Source of the DNA: Clostridia bacterium
Lineage (GTDB): Bacteria > Bacillota > Clostridia > Oscillospirales > CAG-272
Assembly: GCA_017450885.1 (NCBI GenBank)
Contig: JAFSSR010000113.1
Location: forward strand, 1 to 36,422
Length of the DNA stretch: 36,422 bases
Direction: 5' to 3'
In this document: one piece after another, positions 5,901 to 29,708 of the stretch
How the letters are laid out: the number at the start of each line of letters is the position of its first letter
Numbering within the stretch: position 1 is the stretch's first letter
Made by a program: the position numbers and the translations under genes
Notes under the pieces: model-generated
The model's input: the letters and a program-made list of their open reading frames with translations, nothing else
The model's database searches: none
Told to the model about the DNA's origin: nothing

Positions 5901-7346
5901 ATGATAAAACTAAACAAATCCGTACTCCGCGATAAGATCTACGCCTGCTGGATCGGAAAGAACATCGGCGGCACCATGGGCGGCCCGTTTGAAGGAACGA
6001 CCGAGATACAGTCTATCGAGGGCTTCACCACCCCCGAGGGGACGGTGCTTCCCAACGACGATCTCGATCTTCAGCTCATATGGCTCAAGGCGCTTGAAGA
6101 CAAGGGCGCGTACAATATCAATTCCCAGCTTCTCGGCGAATACTGGCTGAACTATATTTCCCCGACCTGGAACGAGTACGGGATAGGGAAGAGCAACCTT
6201 ATGCTCGGGCTCCTGCCTCCGCTCTCGGGCGAGTACGAGAACTACTGGAAAAACTCCAACGGCGCGTGGATACGCTCCGAGGTCTGGGCGTGCGTTACGC
6301 CCGGATGTCCCGACGTAGCCATAAAGTACGCCGTCGAGGACGCCATGGTCGACCACGGGATGAGCGAGGGAACTTACGCCGAGATGTTCACCGCCGCCGT
6401 AGAGTCCGCGGCGTTCGTCGTCGACGACATTTTCGATCTTATCAAGATCGGACTTTCCAAGATCCCTCAGAACTGCCGCGTCGCGCAGAGCGTGCGCACC
6501 GCCGTTGAGTGCTATCACAAAAATCTTGACTGGAAGGAAGCCCGCGAAAAGATCGTAAAGGAAAACCGCGACCTCGGATGGTTCCAGGCTCCCGGAAATA
6601 TTGCCTTCACTATGATCGGCCTTCTCTGGGGCAAGGGCGACTTCAAAAAGTCGATGACCATCGCCATCAACTGCGGCGACGATACCGATTGCACCGGAGC
6701 GACCTGCGGCGCGCTTATGGGAATAATGGGCGGTACAGCCGCCATCCCCGCCGACTGGCGCAAGTATATAGGCGACAAGATCGTAACCATCGCCATCAAC
6801 CGCGGCGACGCCTGGGGAATGCCCCAGACCTGCACGGAGCTTACCAACCGCGTTTTCGGACTTGTCGGTCAGGTCCTTTACGCCAACAGATGCCACCATA
6901 TCGGACTTGTCGATGAGGATAACGACCTTTCCGAGCTTGACGTCGGAAAGCTCTGCGACTCTGACGCCGCCAAGCGCGTATACAGCCGCCCTGCCTGGTC
7001 TTACGAAGTGGACTTCATCCATACCAGGGCGACCGTTATCTTCGGCGCCGAGCCTCGTATCGCCCCTCTCGGAGAGCTCAAATTCAAGCTCTCCCTGCTC
7101 AGCGAGCTCCCCGACCCGAGGAACATGACCTTCAAGTGGTATCTGCCCGAAGGCTGGAAGATCTCCGGCCCCGGAAGCTGCTATCTCCGCCACTATTATC
7201 CCGATCCTCAACACGGACCTACCGTCTGCGAGTTCACCCTGACCGCGGGCGAAACGGTCGAGCCGTTCACCCGGATAATATGCGAGGCGGCGGCGCCCGG
7301 TCGTCCGACCGCCGGACTTATCCCGATCACCGTTTTAGGCGCTTGA
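5901..7346 (+). CDS. ADP-ribosylglycohydrolase family protein with C-terminal beta-rich extension
   Basis: A 481-residue protein. The first ~340 residues match the ADP-ribosylglycohydrolase (DraG/ARH) fold: an early GKNIGGTMGGPFEG segment, an acidic metal site NDDLD (52-56), and the late CGDDTDCTG site (258-266). These are the two clusters that bind the paired magnesium ions used to cleave ADP-ribose from targets. The last ~110 residues look like a beta-sandwich of unknown role. There is no signal peptide, so it is cytoplasmic. A good ribosome binding site (AAAGGAG) precedes ATG 5901. Its position 37 nt behind thrS suggests read-through from the T-box-controlled transcript. The substrate (protein, nucleic acid or small ADP-ribose compound) is not evident; some family members act on other substrates. 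Confidence 0.85.
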   Translation: MIKLNKSVLRDKIYACWIGKNIGGTMGGPFEGTTEIQSIEGFTTPEGTVLPNDDLDLQLIWLKALEDKGAYNINSQLLGEYWLNYISPTWNEYGIGKSNLMLGLLPPLSGEYENYWKNSNGAWIRSEVWACVTPGCPDVAIKYAVEDAMVDHGMSEGTYAEMFTAAVESAAFVVDDIFDLIKIGLSKIPQNCRVAQSVRTAVECYHKNLDWKEAREKIVKENRDLGWFQAPGNIAFTMIGLLWGKGDFKKSMTIAINCGDDTDCTGATCGALMGIMGGTAAIPADWRKYIGDKIVTIAINRGDAWGMPQTCTELTNRVFGLVGQVLYANRCHHIGLVDEDNDLSELDVGKLCDSDAAKRVYSRPAWSYEVDFIHTRATVIFGAEPRIAPLGELKFKLSLLSELPDPRNMTFKWYLPEGWKISGPGSCYLRHYYPDPQHGPTVCEFTLTAGETVEPFTRIICEAAAPGRPTAGLIPITVLGA

Positions 7347-7367: not shown

Positions 7368-7405
7368 TAAAGAGCGGCTTTCCGTTAACGGAAAACCGCT
7401 CTTTA
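7368..7405. terminator. Bidirectional terminator
   Basis: A nearly perfect 38-nt palindrome with one C-A mismatch (arms 7368-7386 and 7387-7405). It lies between the convergent ADP-ribosylglycohydrolase and deacetylase-fusion genes. Both flanks end in a TTTA-type tract. Confidence 0.75.
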
Positions 7406-7419
7406 GTTATGAATGGTCG

Positions 7420-9261
7420 TCAGCCGTTCATCGCAAGATAATCGAGAAGCTGTTTATCCGTGGTGTTGCTGCTTACGGTATAACGGCCTAAATCGACCAA
7501 TGATTGTCCGAGACCGGGCGCTATTTCGTTTACACGACTTTTATCCGTAGAGAAAGTAAAGACGTATCCGCGGCTGACGAGTATTGCGTCCGCGGTCTTG
7601 TTCACTTTGCCTTTCGGAAATGAAAAAGCGTAAGGTTCGTCAAGTCCGCCGTCGGTGAAAAGCGTATTTTGAAGATCTATATCACTATTTACAGCATTAT
7701 AGTACTCATCCATGCTTTCTTCTTTGAAGCGATTTGCGCTTGTCCTTGCCGGTGTGTTTTCCTCGAATTTCTTGTATTGGTGCATATCGAATGTGTGAGA
7801 CTGTATCGAGACGTATCCGGACTGCGACATTTCAACAGCCTCTTCGATTGAGAAATGAGGTATCATCTTTTTTCCGGTATCTTTATACGTATTCTTTCCC
7901 GCCGAGCATCCAATCATAAAAACAGTCGCTTTCGCCCCCTCTTCTTTAATTATCGGATAGGCTGTGCTGTAATTGGAGGAATACCCGTCGTCAAAAGTGA
8001 GCAGTACCGGATATTCGGGAAGTGGGATCCCGCGGTAAACGTAATTTTTCACGTCCTCGAGAGAAACGAATTGATAGCCGTTATCTTTGATCAGTTTAAT
8101 TTGCCGCCTCAGCTCGTCACTGTGAATATTTGTCGTAGACTGCTTTGAATTATCGTTTGTGTTGTGATAAAGGAGTACCGGGACGCGTACTGCCTGCCGG
8201 GAGCAGATCGCATCTTTTGCGGTATTCTTCATTTCCGCCGCGGAATATATCTTCGATGAAGAAAACTCGTATCCAAAATGTTCGGGAAGATATATATCTT
8301 TTTCGCCGGCTTCAGCGCCGATCACCATATCGGCGGTCGCGTTTCTCGTATGTGTAAGATCATAAAAATATCTTGCGTCGAAGGAAATAGGCGAAACGGA
8401 ATAATTCCGGTAATCTGTGATATTTGCAAGGCCGGAGAACAATCTGTCGATGCTCTCATCGGTAAACAATTCTAACTGTTCTATGTATACCGGAGTAAAC
8501 ACGACGGTCAAGGTCGTTCCCGATATATCACAGAGCCGTTTGATCTCGGCTACGTCGTTGAGACACTCGTCTATCCTTGCAAGCTCGCTTTTTGAATTTG
8601 CGGCAGGAAAGTCGTCGCTGTGGAGCTGCATATATTCTTCAAGAGTGCCGATCGCCTCCGCGTCCCTGATCCTTTTGTCGTAGCAGCCCGACTCCTGAAT
8701 AAAAACGTCTGCTTTTTTGGGCAGTTCTTCATCCTCCGAGCGCGCTTTCAGCTTTTTGAAGGCGTGACCGGGACTTGCGAAAGCGAAGGCGGCGTAATAT
8801 GACAGTGGACTTTCTCCGGTGACGCGGTAGTTTTCCTTGTCGTTCAGATCTCCGCTGTTCTTCCGAACGTGATTGGCTTCACTCATCCCCAAAACAAGAA
8901 AAATTCGTTTTACGTCGTCGTTCTCTGTCAGATATTTGACCAGCTTTACGTCGTACGCTGTGTCGGATCCATAGTGGAACATATTATAAAAACTACCGCC
9001 GAAACTCTTGTTAAGAGTCTCCGGAAGATAAGATGCCGCATTTGACGATCCGATAACGTAAGAGTCGAATTTGTCAAAATTCTTCGTAACGTAAGTGACC
9101 TTGCTGTTCCTGGGATTTAAAGTCTGCGTGTACCCGCCCCAGTCCATCACGGGGTCGCCGAATGCGTTGAACGGGTCGACGGCTACGTTGAGGCCGATCC
9201 AGCATAAAACGGCGAATAATAAGGCGGAGATAAACATCAAAAACCATTTTTTTGCATTCAT
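7420..9261 (-). CDS. DltD/AlgJ-like SGNH domain fused to PgaB/IcaB-type polysaccharide deacetylase
   Basis: A 613-residue protein anchored by one N-terminal membrane helix (about 5-28), the rest presumably outside. Residues ~30-345 resemble the DltD/AlgJ SGNH-like group: VIGSSN gives a candidate nucleophile Ser73, and YDLTH gives the matching Asp301-x-x-His304. Residues ~358-613 form a NodB (carbohydrate esterase 4) domain: TFDDG with Asp424 (base) and Asp425 (metal), and SHTFDMH with His489 and His494. The five-residue His-to-His spacing matches PgaB/IcaB-like poly-N-acetylglucosamine deacetylases; ordinary NodB enzymes have HTxxH. It is the last gene of a tight four-gene Dlt-like operon, 9 nt behind the MBOAT gene. 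The likely role is acyl hand-over to, and N-deacetylation of, one extracellular polymer; this is inference. Confidence 0.85.
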   Translation of the reverse strand: MNAKKWFLMFISALLFAVLCWIGLNVAVDPFNAFGDPVMDWGGYTQTLNPRNSKVTYVTKNFDKFDSYVIGSSNAASYLPETLNKSFGGSFYNMFHYGSDTAYDVKLVKYLTENDDVKRIFLVLGMSEANHVRKNSGDLNDKENYRVTGESPLSYYAAFAFASPGHAFKKLKARSEDEELPKKADVFIQESGCYDKRIRDAEAIGTLEEYMQLHSDDFPAANSKSELARIDECLNDVAEIKRLCDISGTTLTVVFTPVYIEQLELFTDESIDRLFSGLANITDYRNYSVSPISFDARYFYDLTHTRNATADMVIGAEAGEKDIYLPEHFGYEFSSSKIYSAAEMKNTAKDAICSRQAVRVPVLLYHNTNDNSKQSTTNIHSDELRRQIKLIKDNGYQFVSLEDVKNYVYRGIPLPEYPVLLTFDDGYSSNYSTAYPIIKEEGAKATVFMIGCSAGKNTYKDTGKKMIPHFSIEEAVEMSQSGYVSIQSHTFDMHQYKKFEENTPARTSANRFKEESMDEYYNAVNSDIDLQNTLFTDGGLDEPYAFSFPKGKVNKTADAILVSRGYVFTFSTDKSRVNEIAPGLGQSLVDLGRYTVSSNTTDKQLLDYLAMNG

Positions 9262-9270
9262 AGCCGCCTC

Positions 9271-10818
9271 CTACACGTTTTCGTAAACGTACGATATCGG
9301 GACGTAATTTGAATTTGCGTAGATCCCGATAACGATTATCACAAGACATACGGACAACACCGCAAACTGAACGTACCATTTTTTGCGGCAGAAGCTTTCT
9401 ATGGGGTCGATCCCTTTTTCTTTCAGCGCGCTTATAAAAATGAGAAGTCCGCAGGCGACCGCCAGTCTGACTGTCATAAACGTGTCAAAATAAGCGGCGA
9501 GCGTATATTTCGGGTCGCCGGAAGGCGCAAACGAAAAGGTTCGTCCCAGCATCGTGAAAGCCTGAGTCAAAGAGCTTGAATTGGAAAAATAACGTCCTAT
9601 AACGACAATGACGTTGGTTCTTATTATCCCCCAGATCAGCAGCGGTACTGCGGCAGTTCTGCCGTTTAGCCGTTTGCGGATCCTCGCTCCGACAGGCGCC
9701 CATATAAGTCCGAGAGACATCAGCGTTCCGTTCCATATACCGTATGCTATGTTCTGCCAACCCGGACCCTGCCATATCCCGACCGCAAGAAAAACGATAA
9801 AAGTCGCGATGCACGGGGTCACTCGCTTTGCGGAGCCGGGAGACATATGCTTTTTTGCAAATTTGGTGATCTTTGCAAATCTCTTTGAAAGCGCTATAGG
9901 ATAAAAGAGATAGTCCTTCATCCATTCGCCGAGCGAGATATGCCATCTCCTCCAGAAGTCGGCAAGAGAGGTCGAAAAATACGGCTGTCTGAAGTTTTCC
10001 GACATCTTTATGCCAAAGAGTTGAGAGGCTCCGCAAAGAAGATCGATCCCGCCCGAAAAATCACAGTAAAGCTGCAGGCAGTACAGCGCCGCGCCGAGAA
10101 GAATGACGCCGCCGGAGCGTGATTGATAATTGGAGTATACGTCGGCGACGAAAGGCGCAAGAGCGTCCGCGACGGCGGCCTTTTTCAGTATACCGAAGAT
10201 CATCCGCAATAAGCCGGTTCGTATATTTTCCCAATCCAGAGGACTGCCGGCGTAAAGCTGTCCCGATAGCAGATCGAAGCGGTTTATCGGTCCCTGCACC
10301 ATCTGCGGGAACCAGCAAACGAAAAGCAAGTATTTAAGCGGATTTTTTTCGGGAGGATACTTTCCTTTTGCCGTGTCGATAAGATATGCCGAAGTCTGGA
10401 ATATATAAAACGAAATTCCCAGAGGCAAAATAAAACTCGGCAGAGGTATAGCCGTTCGTCCGATCAGGGTGTTTACGGTCGTGACAAAAAAACCGCCGTA
10501 CTTCAGTACTCCGAGAACGGAAAAGTTTATAATCAGCGCGGGAGCAAGAATAGCCCGTTTCCTGCGCTTGTCGCGCTTTTTTACCGACGCGGGATCTTCG
10601 CCATCCGCAACGGATGGCTTTTTACCGAGCAGAAGGGAGGCGAGATATGTAAACAGAGCCGTTGCAAGCAGATACAGCCCTGCCTTTATTCCGTTCAACA
10701 AGTAAAACGTGACGGAAGCACAAAGCAGGACAAACCATCTGATTTTCTTCGGCGCTGCATAATAAAAGACCGCCGATATCAGCAGAAATAGGAGAAAATA
10801 GGCTCCGTTTACGGACAT
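9271..10818 (-). CDS. MBOAT-family membrane O-acyltransferase (AlgI/DltB-like) with a replaced catalytic histidine
   Basis: A 515-residue multi-pass membrane protein of the MBOAT family, which moves acyl or aminoacyl groups across the membrane to polysaccharides. Family signatures are clear: PLGISFYIFQTSAYLID (133-148), WFPQMVQGPINRF (169-181), LQLYCDFSGGIDL (248-260) and FWRRWHISL (288-296, His293). The usual GxWHG carries the invariant active-site His; here it reads GIWQG with Gln350 (codon CAG at 9771-9769). The following WGxxHG is YGIWNG. The C-terminus has an aromatic tail (PISYVYENV). It starts 1 nt after the carrier-protein stop and precedes the SGNH-deacetylase gene, so it surely works with them. 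If the Gln is real, chemistry may differ from standard MBOATs or be impaired. Confidence 0.9.
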   Translation of the reverse strand: MSVNGAYFLLFLLISAVFYYAAPKKIRWFVLLCASVTFYLLNGIKAGLYLLATALFTYLASLLLGKKPSVADGEDPASVKKRDKRRKRAILAPALIINFSVLGVLKYGGFFVTTVNTLIGRTAIPLPSFILPLGISFYIFQTSAYLIDTAKGKYPPEKNPLKYLLFVCWFPQMVQGPINRFDLLSGQLYAGSPLDWENIRTGLLRMIFGILKKAAVADALAPFVADVYSNYQSRSGGVILLGAALYCLQLYCDFSGGIDLLCGASQLFGIKMSENFRQPYFSTSLADFWRRWHISLGEWMKDYLFYPIALSKRFAKITKFAKKHMSPGSAKRVTPCIATFIVFLAVGIWQGPGWQNIAYGIWNGTLMSLGLIWAPVGARIRKRLNGRTAAVPLLIWGIIRTNVIVVIGRYFSNSSSLTQAFTMLGRTFSFAPSGDPKYTLAAYFDTFMTVRLAVACGLLIFISALKEKGIDPIESFCRKKWYVQFAVLSVCLVIIVIGIYANSNYVPISYVYENV

Positions 10819-10819
10819 A

Positions 10820-11050
10820 TCATTCTTCTTCTTTGAGTTTATTTACCAGATTGAAGATCGCTTCCGCGGAATTGAAGTTTTCCGCGGTGAGGTCGTCAAC
10901 GGTTATTTCGATCCCGAATTCGTCGGAAAGCTCGCCGACGATCATGACGATGTCGAGCGATTCCAATATCCCGTTGTCGATAAGAGCAGTTTCGGTCTCA
11001 AAATCAACCCCGGGGCAGCATCCTTCAAGTATTTCCAATATTTTTTCCAT
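10820..11050 (-). CDS. DltC-like acyl/aminoacyl carrier protein
   Basis: A 76-residue acidic carrier protein of the phosphopantetheine-binding family. The attachment serine is Ser31 in NGILESLDIV, which fits the GLLDS-type motif of DltC. Four helices of the usual size can be drawn, with FGIEITVDDL leading into the third helix. It lies 2 nt behind the adenylation-enzyme gene and 1 nt before the MBOAT gene, so it should carry the thioester-bound substrate between these two. A phosphopantetheinyl transferase must act on it; none is in this window. Confidence 0.9.
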   Translation of the reverse strand: MEKILEILEGCCPGVDFETETALIDNGILESLDIVMIVGELSDEFGIEITVDDLTAENFNSAEAIFNLVNKLKEEE

Positions 11051-11052
11051 TT

Positions 11053-12543
11053 TTATAAATCCTTTGCCATTTGTAATAAAACTTTTCTGTCTATCTTTCC
11101 GGTCCGTGTCTTCGGAAAGTCGTCGAGCTTTACGGCGTTTTTAGGAACCATAAATCTCGGAAGCGTTTTGCGTATATGTGAGAGCAGGGATAAGGAGTCG
11201 GTATTTCCTGTGTAAAAGATGGTGATGACCGATTTTTCCTCGTCGTATACGCAGGCGCAGACCTCCGCGTCGGGGGCGGATGAGGCGCAAAGCTCTATCT
11301 CCGATAATTCTATGCGGTGTCCCATGTGTTTTATCTGAGTGTCTTTGCGTCCCGTGAAGTACAGCTTACCGTCTTTTTTGAACGAGAGGTCGCCGGTGCG
11401 GTATATCCTTTCGGAGTATCTTTTTTCGAGAGGATTTTGTATAAAAACGGCTTTCGAGAGATCCGGCCTCCCGAAATATCCCGTGGAAAGACAGCTTCCT
11501 GAAACACAAATCTCACCTATGTCTCCCTCGCGCAAGACGGGATCTTCGCCGTTGAGGAGAAATACTGAACAATTCGGAAAAGGAACTCCGATCGGTACGG
11601 CGCGGTCGAGTTTATCCTCACGGCCGATTATGTGATATGTGCAGTTGCAGGTGATCTCGGTAGGGCCGTAGAGATTGACAAACCTTACGTCGGGAAATGA
11701 ACTCATCCAGTATTCAAGCGTTTTAGGAGGGATGGTCTCTCCTGAAAACATAACGTCTTTCAGAAACATCGGTCTATCCGATCTGAAAGCGTTGAGAGCT
11801 GAAAGCACTCTTAGAGCGGGGACCGCCCAGATGAGGGTGTTAATTTTTCTTTCGTTTAGCCTTTGTATCAGCAGGGAGGGAAGAGTAAAAAGCTTTTTTT
11901 CAAGTATTTCGAGCCTTCCCCCGGTTTTTAGTGAAATAAAAATATCTTTTACGGATACGTCAAAATCGAACGGGGCTTGATTTCCGAATACCGAGCCGTC
12001 TTCAAATCCGAAAACAGAACAGAATTGCTCTGTCATATCAACGACTCCGCGGTGGGTGATCGTGACCCCCTTGGGCACTCCGGTTGAACCGGAAGTAAAC
12101 AGAACGTAAAGGGGATCGGTATCCTTTCTTTCCAACCACGGAGAAGCCTGCGGGGCTTCGCAGTCCAGATCCTGTGCCGCGACCCGCTGCTTTTCGGAAA
12201 TACCTTTCGGAAGCCTGTCGTCGTTGTCGATTATAAAATGGGGGTCTATCACTGAAAGCATATCGGCTATTCGGTTTTCGGGCAGAAGGGGGTCGATGGG
12301 AACGTAGAAATTTCCGCTGTACGCAACCGAAAGGAAAAAGATAATGTCAAGAGGCTTATGCTCCGAAACAACGGCGATCGGCTTGTTTTCCGATCCGAAC
12401 CGATAAGCGATGGCTTGCCCGTATTTTTTGACCATGCTCCATTCCTGCGCATAGGTATAGGAGATATCCGCGCCCGCAAGCGAAACGCGCTCCGGATATT
12501 TTTCTGCGTCATATTCGAGATAAGATATAATGTTGCAGATCAT
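11053..12543 (-). CDS. DltA-like adenylation enzyme (amino-acid:carrier ligase)
   Basis: A 496-residue ANL-superfamily enzyme that activates a carboxylate with ATP and loads it on the adjacent carrier protein. Core motifs: FTSGSTGVPKGV (149-160), LYGPTE (291-296), YRTGDL, GRKDTQIKHMGHRIEL, and the C-terminal lysine loop KTRTGKIDRK. The region PFDFDVSVKD (191-200) aligns with the DltA stretch whose Asp grips the substrate amine, giving Asp195, so an amino acid is likely. DltA has Cys in its FCGE motif, tied to D-alanine selectivity; here it is FSGE with Ser267. The substrate may therefore not be D-alanine. GGAG lies 7 nt before ATG 12543. It heads the four-gene operon driven from about 12579-12607. 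Confidence 0.9.
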   Translation of the reverse strand: MICNIISYLEYDAEKYPERVSLAGADISYTYAQEWSMVKKYGQAIAYRFGSENKPIAVVSEHKPLDIIFFLSVAYSGNFYVPIDPLLPENRIADMLSVIDPHFIIDNDDRLPKGISEKQRVAAQDLDCEAPQASPWLERKDTDPLYVLFTSGSTGVPKGVTITHRGVVDMTEQFCSVFGFEDGSVFGNQAPFDFDVSVKDIFISLKTGGRLEILEKKLFTLPSLLIQRLNERKINTLIWAVPALRVLSALNAFRSDRPMFLKDVMFSGETIPPKTLEYWMSSFPDVRFVNLYGPTEITCNCTYHIIGREDKLDRAVPIGVPFPNCSVFLLNGEDPVLREGDIGEICVSGSCLSTGYFGRPDLSKAVFIQNPLEKRYSERIYRTGDLSFKKDGKLYFTGRKDTQIKHMGHRIELSEIELCASSAPDAEVCACVYDEEKSVITIFYTGNTDSLSLLSHIRKTLPRFMVPKNAVKLDDFPKTRTGKIDRKVLLQMAKDL

Positions 12544-12578: not shown

Positions 12579-12607
12579 AGTATATCATATTCATAGAAAA
12601 AAGTAAA
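12579..12607 (-). promoter_or_regulatory. Probable promoter of the Dlt-like operon
   Basis: On the minus strand: TTTACT (12607-12602), 17 nt, TATACT (12584-12579), with TG one base before the -10. The start would fall near 12572, giving a leader of about 29 nt. A second possible -10 (TATAAT) lies further upstream but with poor spacing. Confidence 0.5.
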
Positions 12608-25901: not shown

Positions 25902-26756
25902 TCATTCAATAAAAGCCGAGAGGCGTTCGTATTCGTTGCCGTAAAACGCGGCGTTGTTTTCGTCCTTTTCAACTCCGTCGCCTTTTTCGTAAGCCTCGGC
26001 GAGACGCTTCAGAGCCTCGCAGTCTCCGAACTCGGCGCCCTTTTCATAAAAGTCGATCGCTTGCGCGGGATCGCAAAGGTCTCCGTACGCGGCGTACGCT
26101 CCGTGAAAACCCTGCTTTGCCGCTTGTTCAAGCATCTCCTTGCGCTTTTCGACCGGAAGTCTTTCGTCCTCCGCTTCAAGGAAGAGCTTTTCTCCGTCGA
26201 TTATATTCGGATGAACTATATTCAGCCTGTCGCGGTCGATGACCCACGCCTGCTTGAACCAGAAGTATGCCCGCGTCCATTGCTTTTCGATATCCGCGTC
26301 GATCGCAAAGCGGTCGAAGAGAGCGATCATTGAAAGGAAATGTCCTTTCTTCGCCGCCCGGTCGAAGTATTCGACCGCAAGCTCTTTGTTACGCTCCACG
26401 CCCTCTCCGCGCATCAGAAGTACGGCGTATTTATAACAGGCTTTCGCGTCGCCGCCGTCCGCTTCCGCTTTTAGGACTTTTATTTCCCCGTCGGACAGCG
26501 ACGCTTTTTTTCTTTTTATGCCGCCGAGCAGCTTTACCGCGGGAATAAACCCTTTTTTTGCGGACGCTTCAAGAAATCCCACGGCTATCTCGTGCGAAGG
26601 CTCGACCCCTTTTCCGGTATAGTACATATAGCCCAAAAGATACGCCGCCTGAGCTTCTCCGTCGTCGGCGAGTCTGACAAGCCTTCTCACGGCGGAGGGG
26701 AAGTCCCCCTCCTCCATAAGACGGTAGATCGCGTCGTATTCTTTCTGATACTTCAT
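25902..26756 (-). CDS. Sel1-repeat (TPR-like) protein
   Basis: A 284-residue, all-helical soluble protein. The start at 26756 is chosen because ATGA there overlaps the stop of the upstream glycosidase gene (4-bp translational coupling). At least three Sel1 repeats are visible, each with an AxYLLGxMYYTGKGV-type helix followed by AVxxxxxAAKKG: at about 33-68, 102-140 and 250-284. Sel1 repeats form a solenoid used for protein-protein contacts. The overlap with the glycosidase gene implies joint expression; whether the protein binds the glycosidase is not shown. A terminator follows. Confidence 0.85.
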   Translation of the reverse strand: MKYQKEYDAIYRLMEEGDFPSAVRRLVRLADDGEAQAAYLLGYMYYTGKGVEPSHEIAVGFLEASAKKGFIPAVKLLGGIKRKKASLSDGEIKVLKAEADGGDAKACYKYAVLLMRGEGVERNKELAVEYFDRAAKKGHFLSMIALFDRFAIDADIEKQWTRAYFWFKQAWVIDRDRLNIVHPNIIDGEKLFLEAEDERLPVEKRKEMLEQAAKQGFHGAYAAYGDLCDPAQAIDFYEKGAEFGDCEALKRLAEAYEKGDGVEKDENNAAFYGNEYERLSAFIE

Positions 26757-29647
26757 ACGTCGAGTCCGAGCCTCTTGAACGAATAGGTGGGAAGATAATA
26801 CTCGCACTTGTCGCCGTTCCAGCCCTTTTCAAAGCAGAATTTTTCAGGCGTTGCGTAACATTCGGCTTCGATAAAGTGATGCGGTCCGAGAAGGTTCCTG
26901 TTGGTCGCCCAGATGCGGACGGTTATCCTGTCGTCGGGAGATCTGAGATAGTCCCTTAGGTCGATCTTCCTTGTGAACATGAGTCTGCCGGCGATCTCTC
27001 CGTTAACGCGGACAAGCGCGGTGGGATAGCTTCCGGGAAGTTCGAGAACGGTTCCGTCGTTTTCGCGTTCGATCTCCAGGTCAAAATATCCGTTGAAAAA
27101 GGTGTACCCGCCCTTGACCACGTTATACCGGTCGGTAGGCTCGTGGGGAGCTTCGATGGCAAAACCGCCGTCGTATATGTTGTATTCGTGATAGATATCC
27201 TCGAATTTTCCGTCCGTCTTAACGCAGAACTTGCCGAAGAGATAGGGTATCTCGATCTCGGTGTCGAAGTTGAGGCAGTTGCGCAGAGACTCCGATACTC
27301 CGCCGTAAAGGACGTGGTATACGTAGTCGCTCTGCCAATAATCGAGGCTCATGACCAGCTCGTTTTCTCCGGCCTTGACGTAGGGAAGAGCGTCGTAAGC
27401 CTTGAAGGTGCGGTCTATACGGTATCCCTTGACGTCGGTGAGCTGATGACCGTTGAGGGTGAGCGACTTATAGTCGAGCGGCTCGACGACGCAGAGCAGA
27501 GTCTCCGGCATCGAAAGCACGTCAAATCTGAACTTGATCCAGATCATGCCCTTGTACCTGTCGGAAAGCAGGTTATCCTTTATCTGCATAAAGGGGGAGA
27601 GCTTTCCGTAGTTTACGCCGTCGTAAGATATCTCGGCATAGTCGAGGGGCATGGCGTTCTCGGGTATCTCAAGGAGTTTGATATTCTTTATGGTAAAGGG
27701 TCTCGCTTCGGGAGCGGGCTCCGCCTTTACCTCTTTGTCGAGGATAATAAATGACTGATTGGGCTCGAAATCCATAACCGCGGTAAACGATCCGTCCGCG
27801 TTCTTTTCGCCTCTGATCGCTTTATATTCAAGCGTTTCGAGGTCGAGAGAAACGAGATGTCCGCAGTTCTTGACGGTAAAGCTGACGCGGTTGAGCGGCT
27901 TTTTATCAAAGTTGAAGACGTAGAACATCCTGCCTTCGTCGGTGATCCGCTCCATAACGCGGACGTGGAGGGCTTCTTTTCCGTCGATCCTTGCGATCAC
28001 GTCGGAGGAGGCGGCGACGTCGGCCATGCTGATATTGGGCTTTAGCCAGGAGAGATCGGCGATCCGTCCGTCGATCCTCGTCGGAAGGGTGTCCGCGTAG
28101 TTTGCGAGCTTTCCACCGTTTTCGAGGAATTCTTTGAGCAGCTTTGCGGTGTAGGAGTCGATCGTGTAGATCAGCGGGAGCACGACTGTGTCGTATTCGC
28201 ACTCGCCTACGATTATTTTCGCTCCTTCGACTCTCGCGTGCTTCTGCATGATTATCTCGTCGCCGTAGTGGAAGGCGATCTGATTTTGCGACATACAGTC
28301 GTGGAGACGCTGCAGCGAAACGTCAAGCTCCGCTATGGTCGGCGCGTCTATTTCGCGCTTGTAGTTGAGATAAGCCGAATGCATCGGGTGGATAACGAGC
28401 ACGTTGGCTTTTTCTTTGCCGTAGGATAAAGCGCAGCCGAGACGGTTGAAATATTCGTTGAACGGAGCGAATTCACGGTAGTAGGAGTTGTGCTCGGAAA
28501 AATGCGCGGGGTAGTCGCGCTTTCTCTGTCCGCGTTCGGAGTAAGGATAGAGATGCTGGCACATAAGGTTTACTCCGCCGTAATACATATGTTCGGCGGT
28601 CCGCTTGAGCTCGAGCGGAGTGACCTCCCATCCGCAGCAGGCGAACATTTCGGAGAGGACGCGCTTTTTGCCGAGCTGCGCGGCAACGGAGCCGAGCTGC
28701 TTTGCGGAGTAGTCGTTTTCCGTCACCTTGCCGAGATTGTCCATTCCGGGATACTGCTGATACTCGTACATCGGCATAACTCCGCCGCAGCACCACATCT
28801 GACCGTGGAGACATTTTTCCTCTACAAAATGGCCGGTCAGCTTGACGCCGTTCTCCTCGCACCAGTCGTAGAGCACCTTTACGAAGTTGTATAAGAACAG
28901 CTCGTGACAGATAAGGTGATAATCGTATCTGAATTCCTCCGCGCCTTCGTAGTCGATAAACAGGGCGGGGAGCCCGCTCATAACGTCGTATCCGAAACGC
29001 TTTTTGAATTCGGCGGGGAGTGTGTCGCTCCAGACGGTCGCCCATCTGTAATACTGCGGCTCGTCGGTAAAGAAACCGGGCATTATCTTGCCGAAATCGT
29101 CTCCGAGCAGTTTTTTGTACTGCTCGTGCGTAGCCTCGATAAATTTGCGGGTGATGCTTGCGTCCATCGTGTCGACGTAGGAGTCGTCGGCGCGGCGGTA
29201 TATCGTGTGATACTCGGTCTTATCGTCAAAAGCTCCGCCGACCATCATGGGCTTGCCGTTCACCATTACGTAAACGGCGAAGGCCTCCGGGTCATAATAG
29301 TCCTTGACCTCGTATTTAAGATACAGAGAGTAGTTCGCCGGATCTTCAAGCAGCTTGCCTCCGGCAAATCCGCTCGGCCAGCCGTTCTCGTCGTAAGCCC
29401 AGGCCTCCATGCCGAGCTCCTTCGCCCGCTTGACGCACGCCTTGATGCACTCGTACCATTTATCGCTCAGATACTCGGTCTCAAGGCCGCTCCTCGCGTG
29501 CATGAAAAAACCTTTGATGCCTATATCGTGCATGTCGTTTATCTGTTCGATAAGATGGGCGGGATCGAGATCGTCGTTCCAGCTCCAGAAGGGGATGCTG
29601 CCGTACTCGGCGGCGTTGTTTTTGATGTGGGAAACAAGCTTATCCAT
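26753..29647 (-). CDS. GH106-like glycoside hydrolase (alpha-L-rhamnosidase family), cytoplasmic
   Basis: A 964-residue protein. ATG 29647 is chosen because GGAG lies about 6 nt upstream; an ATG at 29689 lies in the promoter region. The N-terminal barrel opens with IPFWSWNDDLDPAHLIEQI and continues with GIKGFFMHARSGLETEYLS and the YDENGWPSGFAGG segment, a pattern I associate with the family 106 rhamnosidase-like group. FTDEPQYY and SEMFACCGWEVTP supply likely catalytic-site acids. Beta-rich accessory regions follow (about 600-960), the last resembling a sugar-binding sandwich. There is no signal peptide, so it likely acts on imported oligosaccharides. It has a strong promoter with duplicated -35 boxes and is coupled to the Sel1-repeat gene. 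Family level is moderately sure; substrate is not. Confidence 0.75.
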   Translation of the reverse strand: MDKLVSHIKNNAAEYGSIPFWSWNDDLDPAHLIEQINDMHDIGIKGFFMHARSGLETEYLSDKWYECIKACVKRAKELGMEAWAYDENGWPSGFAGGKLLEDPANYSLYLKYEVKDYYDPEAFAVYVMVNGKPMMVGGAFDDKTEYHTIYRRADDSYVDTMDASITRKFIEATHEQYKKLLGDDFGKIMPGFFTDEPQYYRWATVWSDTLPAEFKKRFGYDVMSGLPALFIDYEGAEEFRYDYHLICHELFLYNFVKVLYDWCEENGVKLTGHFVEEKCLHGQMWCCGGVMPMYEYQQYPGMDNLGKVTENDYSAKQLGSVAAQLGKKRVLSEMFACCGWEVTPLELKRTAEHMYYGGVNLMCQHLYPYSERGQRKRDYPAHFSEHNSYYREFAPFNEYFNRLGCALSYGKEKANVLVIHPMHSAYLNYKREIDAPTIAELDVSLQRLHDCMSQNQIAFHYGDEIIMQKHARVEGAKIIVGECEYDTVVLPLIYTIDSYTAKLLKEFLENGGKLANYADTLPTRIDGRIADLSWLKPNISMADVAASSDVIARIDGKEALHVRVMERITDEGRMFYVFNFDKKPLNRVSFTVKNCGHLVSLDLETLEYKAIRGEKNADGSFTAVMDFEPNQSFIILDKEVKAEPAPEARPFTIKNIKLLEIPENAMPLDYAEISYDGVNYGKLSPFMQIKDNLLSDRYKGMIWIKFRFDVLSMPETLLCVVEPLDYKSLTLNGHQLTDVKGYRIDRTFKAYDALPYVKAGENELVMSLDYWQSDYVYHVLYGGVSESLRNCLNFDTEIEIPYLFGKFCVKTDGKFEDIYHEYNIYDGGFAIEAPHEPTDRYNVVKGGYTFFNGYFDLEIERENDGTVLELPGSYPTALVRVNGEIAGRLMFTRKIDLRDYLRSPDDRITVRIWATNRNLLGPHHFIEAECYATPEKFCFEKGWNGDKCEYYLPTYSFKRLGLDV

Positions 29648-29679
29648 ACGCTTCTCCGTTTTAAAAATTGGTTGATAAC

Positions 29680-29708
29680 ATTCTATCATATTTATTTATA
29701 TCTGTCAA
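29680..29708 (-). promoter_or_regulatory. Extended -10 promoter of the GH106-like operon
   Basis: On the minus strand: TTGACA (29708-29703), 17 nt, TAGAAT (29685-29680) preceded by TG. Start near 29673. A second TTGACA lies 14 bp upstream in the tandem duplication. Confidence 0.75.

Follow-up and report, generated by a model that had tools for sequence, protein, structure and literature searches.

We analysed a stretch of 36,422 nucleotides (the window) from the uncultured, gut-type Clostridia bacterium assembly GCA_017450885.1 (contig JAFSSR010000113.1, positions 1 to 36,422; Oscillospirales, CAG-272), concentrating on a four-gene cassette on its minus strand. The cassette probably encodes a membrane complex for both O-aminoacylation and N-deacetylation of a single extracellular glycan, an envelope modification of the class in which a membrane-bound O-acyltransferase (MBOAT) works with an SGNH protein. 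In minus-strand order the genes are A (adenylation), C (carrier), B (MBOAT) and D (a fusion of SGNH and NodB domains), separated by 2, 1 and 9 nt. The features of the cassette are as follows.

11053 to 12543, minus strand: gene A, amino-acid adenylation enzyme, 496 aa; pocket code D-V-K-W-M-S-L-C-N-K, A10 residue Lys483; Pfam AMP-binding, 2.8e-55.
10820 to 11050, minus strand: gene C, carrier protein, 76 aa; LESLD motif with Ser31; Pfam PP-binding, 1.6e-5.
9271 to 10818, minus strand: gene B, MBOAT, 515 aa; Pfam MBOAT, 1.9e-8; DltB fold with two additional C-terminal helices.
9769 to 9771, minus strand: CAG codon of Gln350 in B, at the hallmark histidine site of MBOATs (DltB His336), from sequence and alignment.
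9274 to 9291, minus strand: putative acyl-shuttle motif YVYENV with Tyr512 at the C terminus of B, counterpart of the DltX motif FxYxxF (PMC12148441).
7420 to 9261, minus strand: gene D, 613 aa; N-terminal transmembrane helix, SGNH/DltD-fold domain and NodB domain; Pfam Polysacc_deac_1, 8.5e-18.
8257 to 9144, minus strand: SGNH acyltransferase domain of D, with a DltD fold match and invariant Ser73, Asp301 and His304.
7432 to 8208, minus strand: NodB domain of D (CE4, PgaB/IcaB/PplD-type), with His366, Asp424, Asp425, His489, His494 and Arg593.

A first-pass annotation made from the sequence had described four minus-strand genes with these spacings, closed by a terminator, and open reading frame coordinates, Pfam matches and stem energy confirm that layout. 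From the genes, folds, catalytic residues, conservation, operon types and co-variation, all established by computation, we infer a series of catalytic steps, together with an acyl group and an acceptor. A would adenylate an amino acid (probably not D-alanine, possibly an acidic one) and load it onto the carrier C. B would carry the acyl group across the membrane onto Tyr512 in its own C-terminal motif, operating in the clade of the window with a glutamine in place of the hallmark histidine. Ser73 in the SGNH domain of D would then accept the acyl group and esterify a hydroxyl group on an N-acetylated glycan outside the cell, and the NodB domain of D would strip N-acetyl groups from the same glycan, freeing amines.

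Outside the NodB domain, and thus throughout its N-terminal half, D has no Pfam match. In an AlphaFold2 model of D built from 61 sequences (predicted local distance difference test score, pLDDT, 94.7), residues 27-338 match DltD structures (VIA, Z 11.7, root mean square deviation 4.6 over 252 residues), and residues 356-613 match PgaB (Z 29.9), IcaB (Z 27.6) and PplD (Z 26.9). PgaB is the top match of the NodB domain in both sequence and structure. The SGNH residues Ser73, Asp301 and His304 and the NodB residues His366, Asp424, Asp425, His489, His494 and Arg593 are invariant in 61 aligned D sequences. The pairing of acylation with deacetylation proposed at first pass is found as one fused enzyme in many genomes, with folds that match DltD and PgaB; an inactive deacetylase domain had been named there as evidence that would tell against the proposal, and all the deacetylase motif residues tested are intact. 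A plasmid search returned partial matches only, essentially to the NodB half.

The SGNH half of D alone served as the query in a scan of 84,980 species genomes, which gave 140 relatives; the best 80 loci (L059 to L138) were analysed. All of these are Bacillota: most come from Oscillospiraceae and other Clostridia, and two are from named strains of Peptoniphilaceae. A NodB domain is present in D of all of the best 80 of 140 loci (shortened in L063), and donor genes are present in nearly all of the 80 with enough contig. The query contained only the SGNH half, yet every D has NodB and nearly all those with enough contig have donor genes nearby, which indicates that the arrangement is not due to chance. 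Within the sampled family, near full-length D occurs in 10 of 146 genomes, including that of the window.

Three types of donor module accompany D. Type I, with the order A-C-B-D, comprises the window and 15 loci, plus L062 as judged by its D. Type II, A-GNAT-C-B-D, is the majority, although the near-identical L113, L117 and L127 lack the GNAT gene; a Protein Data Bank (PDB) search with a GNAT gave no match. The culturable Anaerosphaera multitolerans has a cassette of this GNAT type. Type III, B-D-carrier-FkbH, accounts for 11 of the 80 loci when the divergent L091 is counted, and the FkbH model TIGR01686 scored above cut-off in both type III proteins tested. FkbH-type enzymes load glyceryl units onto acyl carriers. 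In an MBOAT tree made by a quick method, types I and III each fall on one side of one branch (Shimodaira-Hasegawa-like approximate likelihood ratio, SH-aLRT, 100). The D of L091 (2182-7471) is nested inside the type I D tree, yet its locus has an FkbH donor (a long protein) and a divergent His-type MBOAT, which indicates a donor swap. The cassette is a conserved operon with interchangeable donor modules. The NodB domain has no donor-type-specific alignment columns, and its constancy while the donor genes vary fits a NodB domain whose substrate is the glycan and not the acyl group. The idea that NodB deprotects an N-acetyl-aminoacyl group made by the GNAT is disfavoured, as D keeps NodB in the GNAT-free types I and III.

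The first-pass annotation had seen Dlt-like logic in the cassette but not the lipoteichoic acid (LTA) pathway, and the adenylation pocket, the folds and the operon survey bear this out. The opposing explanation is that the cassette is the Dlt system of this lineage, D-alanylating LTA while NodB trims N-acetylglucosamine (GlcNAc) substituents of the same LTA. The genome does encode two LtaS-like proteins, L053 and L055, which score below the cut-off of the LTA synthase model (L055 has a PDB match to LtaS), and no other Dlt system was seen, since the DltD family model PF04914 matches neither D nor any other protein in the genome. However, the equivalog models of DltA, DltB and DltC all score well below cut-off, TIGR01734 (DltA) giving A 274 bits against a cut-off of 559.85, and C does not reach DltC-type cut-offs. 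The pocket code DVKWMSLCNK, which is the same in every type I genome with an A that spans these positions, differs at 8 of 10 positions from that of a Listeria DltA control read in the same columns (DLMSLCTVAK). Exclusive loading of D-alanine had been named at first pass as telling against its proposal; judged from sequence, the pocket is not D-alanine-like. LtaS-like seeds had zero matches in the flanks of the 80 loci, where a consistent association with LTA synthase genes had likewise been named as contrary evidence. There is no separate DltX, and the FkbH versions would supply a D of this kind with a different acyl group. We consider D-alanylation of LTA improbable.

The absence of a separate DltX is matched by a feature of B itself. 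No DltX-like open reading frame lies upstream of A, which rules out a separate DltX hidden there, and the gaps between the genes are just 1-9 nt. In the model of B (pLDDT 89.4), residues 1-425 match DltB (Z 29.0), and beyond residue 425 two more helices run to the C-terminal motif; PatA-like MBOATs have been described with similar extra helices leading to a C-terminal motif (PMC12148441). The B proteins end in YVYE[NS][VI] in type I, mostly in FIYxQ[FY] in type II and in FLYF[QN]F in type III, and a control DltX ends in FIYNEF. Tyr512 is kept in all 136 of the 136 rows with a letter at that position. A C-terminal tyrosine motif shuttles acyl groups in both DltX and PatA (PMC12148441). By analogy, the Tyr512 motif on the C terminus of B would do the job of the missing DltX. 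Since the last five residues of the B model have pLDDT below 50, the distance from Gln350 to Tyr512 is not readable. Besides B, the genome of the window encodes another MBOAT (C terminus NPFLYFRF; L001, 1072-3558) whose neighbour is a DHHW/AlgJ-like protein; the two probably form an ordinary pair for O-acetylation.

Cousin cassettes offer a view of the substrate of A. The phosphopantetheine-site serine of the carrier, in its LESLD motif, is invariant in 73 of 73 rows, and the type-specific columns of A include pocket positions 330 and 331, the type II code being mostly D[LAGC]KWxGLVDK. Nearly every Asp235-type code that was read has lysine at pocket position 239, as does the glutamate code DAKDLGVVDK. 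Among informative loci with the code DAKWAGLGMK, 15 of 17 have an Asp/Glu racemase gene at most about 2 kb upstream of A; the cassette racemase matches PF01177 and scores above cut-off with TIGR00035. Outside the clade of the window, the code DVKW[ML]SLCNK occurs in three cassettes (L178, L180 and L195, two of them from one genus), all three with a pyridoxal phosphate (PLP) decarboxylase, and in two of these the code is identical to that of the window. These three may possibly follow a route from carrier-bound aspartate to beta-alanine. In macrolactam biosynthesis, VinN loads 3-methyl-aspartate and FlvN aspartate, and VinO decarboxylates the carrier-bound form (PMC11284099), an established case of acidic amino acids bound to carriers. 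The pocket and the operon context of the cousin cassettes hint at an acidic amino acid as the substrate of A, at perhaps slightly less than an even chance.

Other cassettes were seen in the course of this survey. NodB-free cassettes of the order racemase-A-C-B-SGNH, with the Asp/Glu racemase gene a short way upstream of A, occur in wider Clostridia (L175, L177, L183-L186, L188, L191-L194 and L196-L199). Where the MBOAT was read among the three decarboxylase cassettes, namely in L178 and L180, it is of the His type. In L176, L153, L155 and L166 the code of A is SMLW[LM]ALDIK, without the amine-binding aspartate, and the acyl group there is probably a non-amino or differently bound one.

The MBOAT of the window departs from its family at a residue called universally conserved and needed in PatA and DltB (PMC12148441), and elsewhere called the family hallmark (PMC10213974). 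In the window and 15 relatives, this histidine is replaced by glutamine (Gln350, in a WQGP motif). Across 138 aligned MBOAT rows the residue is His in 120 and Gln in 18, and never a third; the 18 Gln rows represent 16 distinct genomes, the window having been entered three times. A sequencing error is ruled out by fixation of the change in these 16 genomes. The type-I-specific MBOAT columns include Pro335, Gln350, Asn356, Tyr510 and Val511, and the only such column in D is Ala76, three residues beyond the catalytic Ser73. Gln350, the shuttle motif, the adenylation pocket and the residue near Ser73 are thus altered together in type I, whereas NodB is not. Such joint change of the enzymes that contact the acyl group, but not of the deacetylase, suggests that type I handles another acyl group, or uses another chemistry, while its glycan is similar.

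The replacement could also mean that the MBOAT of this clade is dead, with the pathway decayed or B a mere scaffold. The published requirement for the histidine in PatA and DltB and its hallmark status agree with this, and so does the existence of a lineage that lacks it, HHATL/GUP1, which is not considered a typical transferase. However, the type I MBOATs are 44-88% identical in pairwise comparison (median 53%, 13 compared), and over this range the genomes with letters at these positions keep WQGP, Tyr512, His293, the A code, the carrier serine and the catalytic residues of D. Decay would not be expected to fix a new motif, so the fixed WQGP speaks against a dead enzyme, which we regard as quite improbable. 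We tentatively suggest instead that these MBOATs are active with glutamine in place of histidine, acylation of the tyrosine being aided by His293 or by the amine or carboxylate of the acyl group itself. If this is true, the textbook need for the MBOAT histidine is not universal. The fixed change offers a direct natural test of the role of that residue.

The deacetylase and the genome context bear on the acceptor. The first-pass annotation had linked the cassette to poly-GlcNAc by comparison with PgaB and IcaB, and PgaB is indeed the closest match of the NodB domain. However, PplD, a deacetylase of the linkage unit, shares the PgaB/IcaB-type active site (PMC8807736), so that likeness to all three proteins does not imply poly-GlcNAc. 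The PgaB model TIGR03938 scores D at 116.8 against a cut-off of 321.9, the genome has no PgaC/IcaA above cut-off, and glycosyltransferase seeds match the flanks of only 2 of the 80 loci. The link to poly-GlcNAc is not supported by these results, and we consider that acceptor very improbable. Neighbour clustering over the 80 loci revealed no recurrent glycosyltransferase, only antisense artefacts, ABC transporters, response regulators and purine genes, which speaks against a polymer synthase as a regular neighbour.

The acceptor may be peptidoglycan, a wall glycopolymer or the linkage unit of such a polymer. A narrower form of the reading proposed here, differing from it only in the acceptor, names either peptidoglycan or, in a wall glycopolymer, its GlcNAc linkage unit, with O-acylation and de-N-acetylation giving lysozyme protection or linkage stability. 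PplD works on the wall linkage unit, and PatA and PatB O-acetylate peptidoglycan with the same MBOAT-SGNH layout (PMC12148441). A cassette that travels without a dedicated polymer synthase also suits a housekeeping polymer. On the other side, the structure of PplD is reported to lie further from that of the peptidoglycan deacetylase PgdA (PMC8807736), and no result here singles out the acceptor. We regard this narrower form as a plausible minority possibility.

Several points weigh against O-aminoacylation and N-deacetylation of one glycan by this complex. The hallmark histidine is missing from B, and the SGNH label of D is a prediction based on fold and motifs. The pocket code, as read from alignments, would not by itself fix the substrate, and the genes flanking the cassette are housekeeping genes that offer no pointer to the acceptor. 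In addition, no homologue of the PLP decarboxylase is found in this 92%-complete genome; this speaks against its supply in trans, and the residue would be transferred as loaded.

Compared with known systems, the cassette shares with the Dlt pathway (DltA, DltB, DltC, DltD, DltX) an adenylation enzyme, a carrier, a DltB-fold MBOAT, a DltD-fold SGNH protein and a shuttle tyrosine. It differs in its A pocket, in the placement of the shuttle on the MBOAT C terminus instead of a separate DltX, in Gln for His, in a D that has no match to Pfam DltD and carries a fused deacetylase, and in the lack of linkage to LTA genes. By four tested features, the cassette lies outside the LTA Dlt system. PatA/PatB, AlgI/AlgJ-X and WssH/WssI likewise combine an MBOAT with a C-terminal shuttle tyrosine and an SGNH partner; the cassette differs from them in that its acyl donor would be bound to a carrier and supplied by dedicated enzymes, in place of acetyl-CoA, and that its SGNH domain is fused to NodB. 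PgaB, IcaB and PplD share the NodB fold and the six active-site residues, but in the cassette NodB is fused to an SGNH acyltransferase, and neither a poly-GlcNAc synthase nor recurrent polymer genes were found. VinN/VinO and FlvN, which supply macrolactam starter units, resemble it in a stand-alone adenylation enzyme that loads a stand-alone carrier, with an acidic amino acid in their case and possibly in the cassette too, and their PLP decarboxylase on the carrier-bound form is seen in the cousins L178, L180 and L195 but not in the window; they belong to secondary metabolism and lack MBOAT and SGNH proteins. FkbH-type loading is paralleled in the type III branch, where FkbH and a carrier replace A and C; it is absent from the window, and attachment to a surface glycan would be a further difference.

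No earlier description of this cassette was found in the open papers searched. New here is a predicted carrier-fed, self-shuttling MBOAT-SGNH acylation system with an acyltransferase-deacetylase fusion, to which the branch of the window adds a conserved His-to-Gln change in the MBOAT. The shuttle tyrosine within the MBOAT, the glutamine at the hallmark site and the interchangeable donor modules go beyond the first-pass annotation. Current papers keep carrier feeding (DltB) and the built-in shuttle (PatA) separate, and this MBOAT would combine them. One enzyme would pair two envelope-glycan modifications, ester-linked acyl groups and free amines, with interchangeable donor modules, in a complex that is widespread in Clostridia, many of them from animal guts and rumens.

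The borders of the cassette are marked by two further features, and a Shine-Dalgarno-like GGAGAAA precedes gene A.

12579 to 12607, minus strand: promoter-like site TTTACT-17-TATACT with an extended -10, about 36 nt upstream of A, a candidate by consensus match only.
7368 to 7405, minus strand: intrinsic terminator with a 17-bp stem (-27.8 kcal/mol, z -8.4).

On the divergent side the cassette borders a mannitol-1-phosphate-dehydrogenase-like gene. On the convergent side it borders an ADP-ribosylglycohydrolase-family gene (window 5901-7346), with which it shares the terminator region. Elsewhere in the window, positions 26753-29689 have a GH106 (alpha-L-rhamnosidase) match near addB/addA-like genes.

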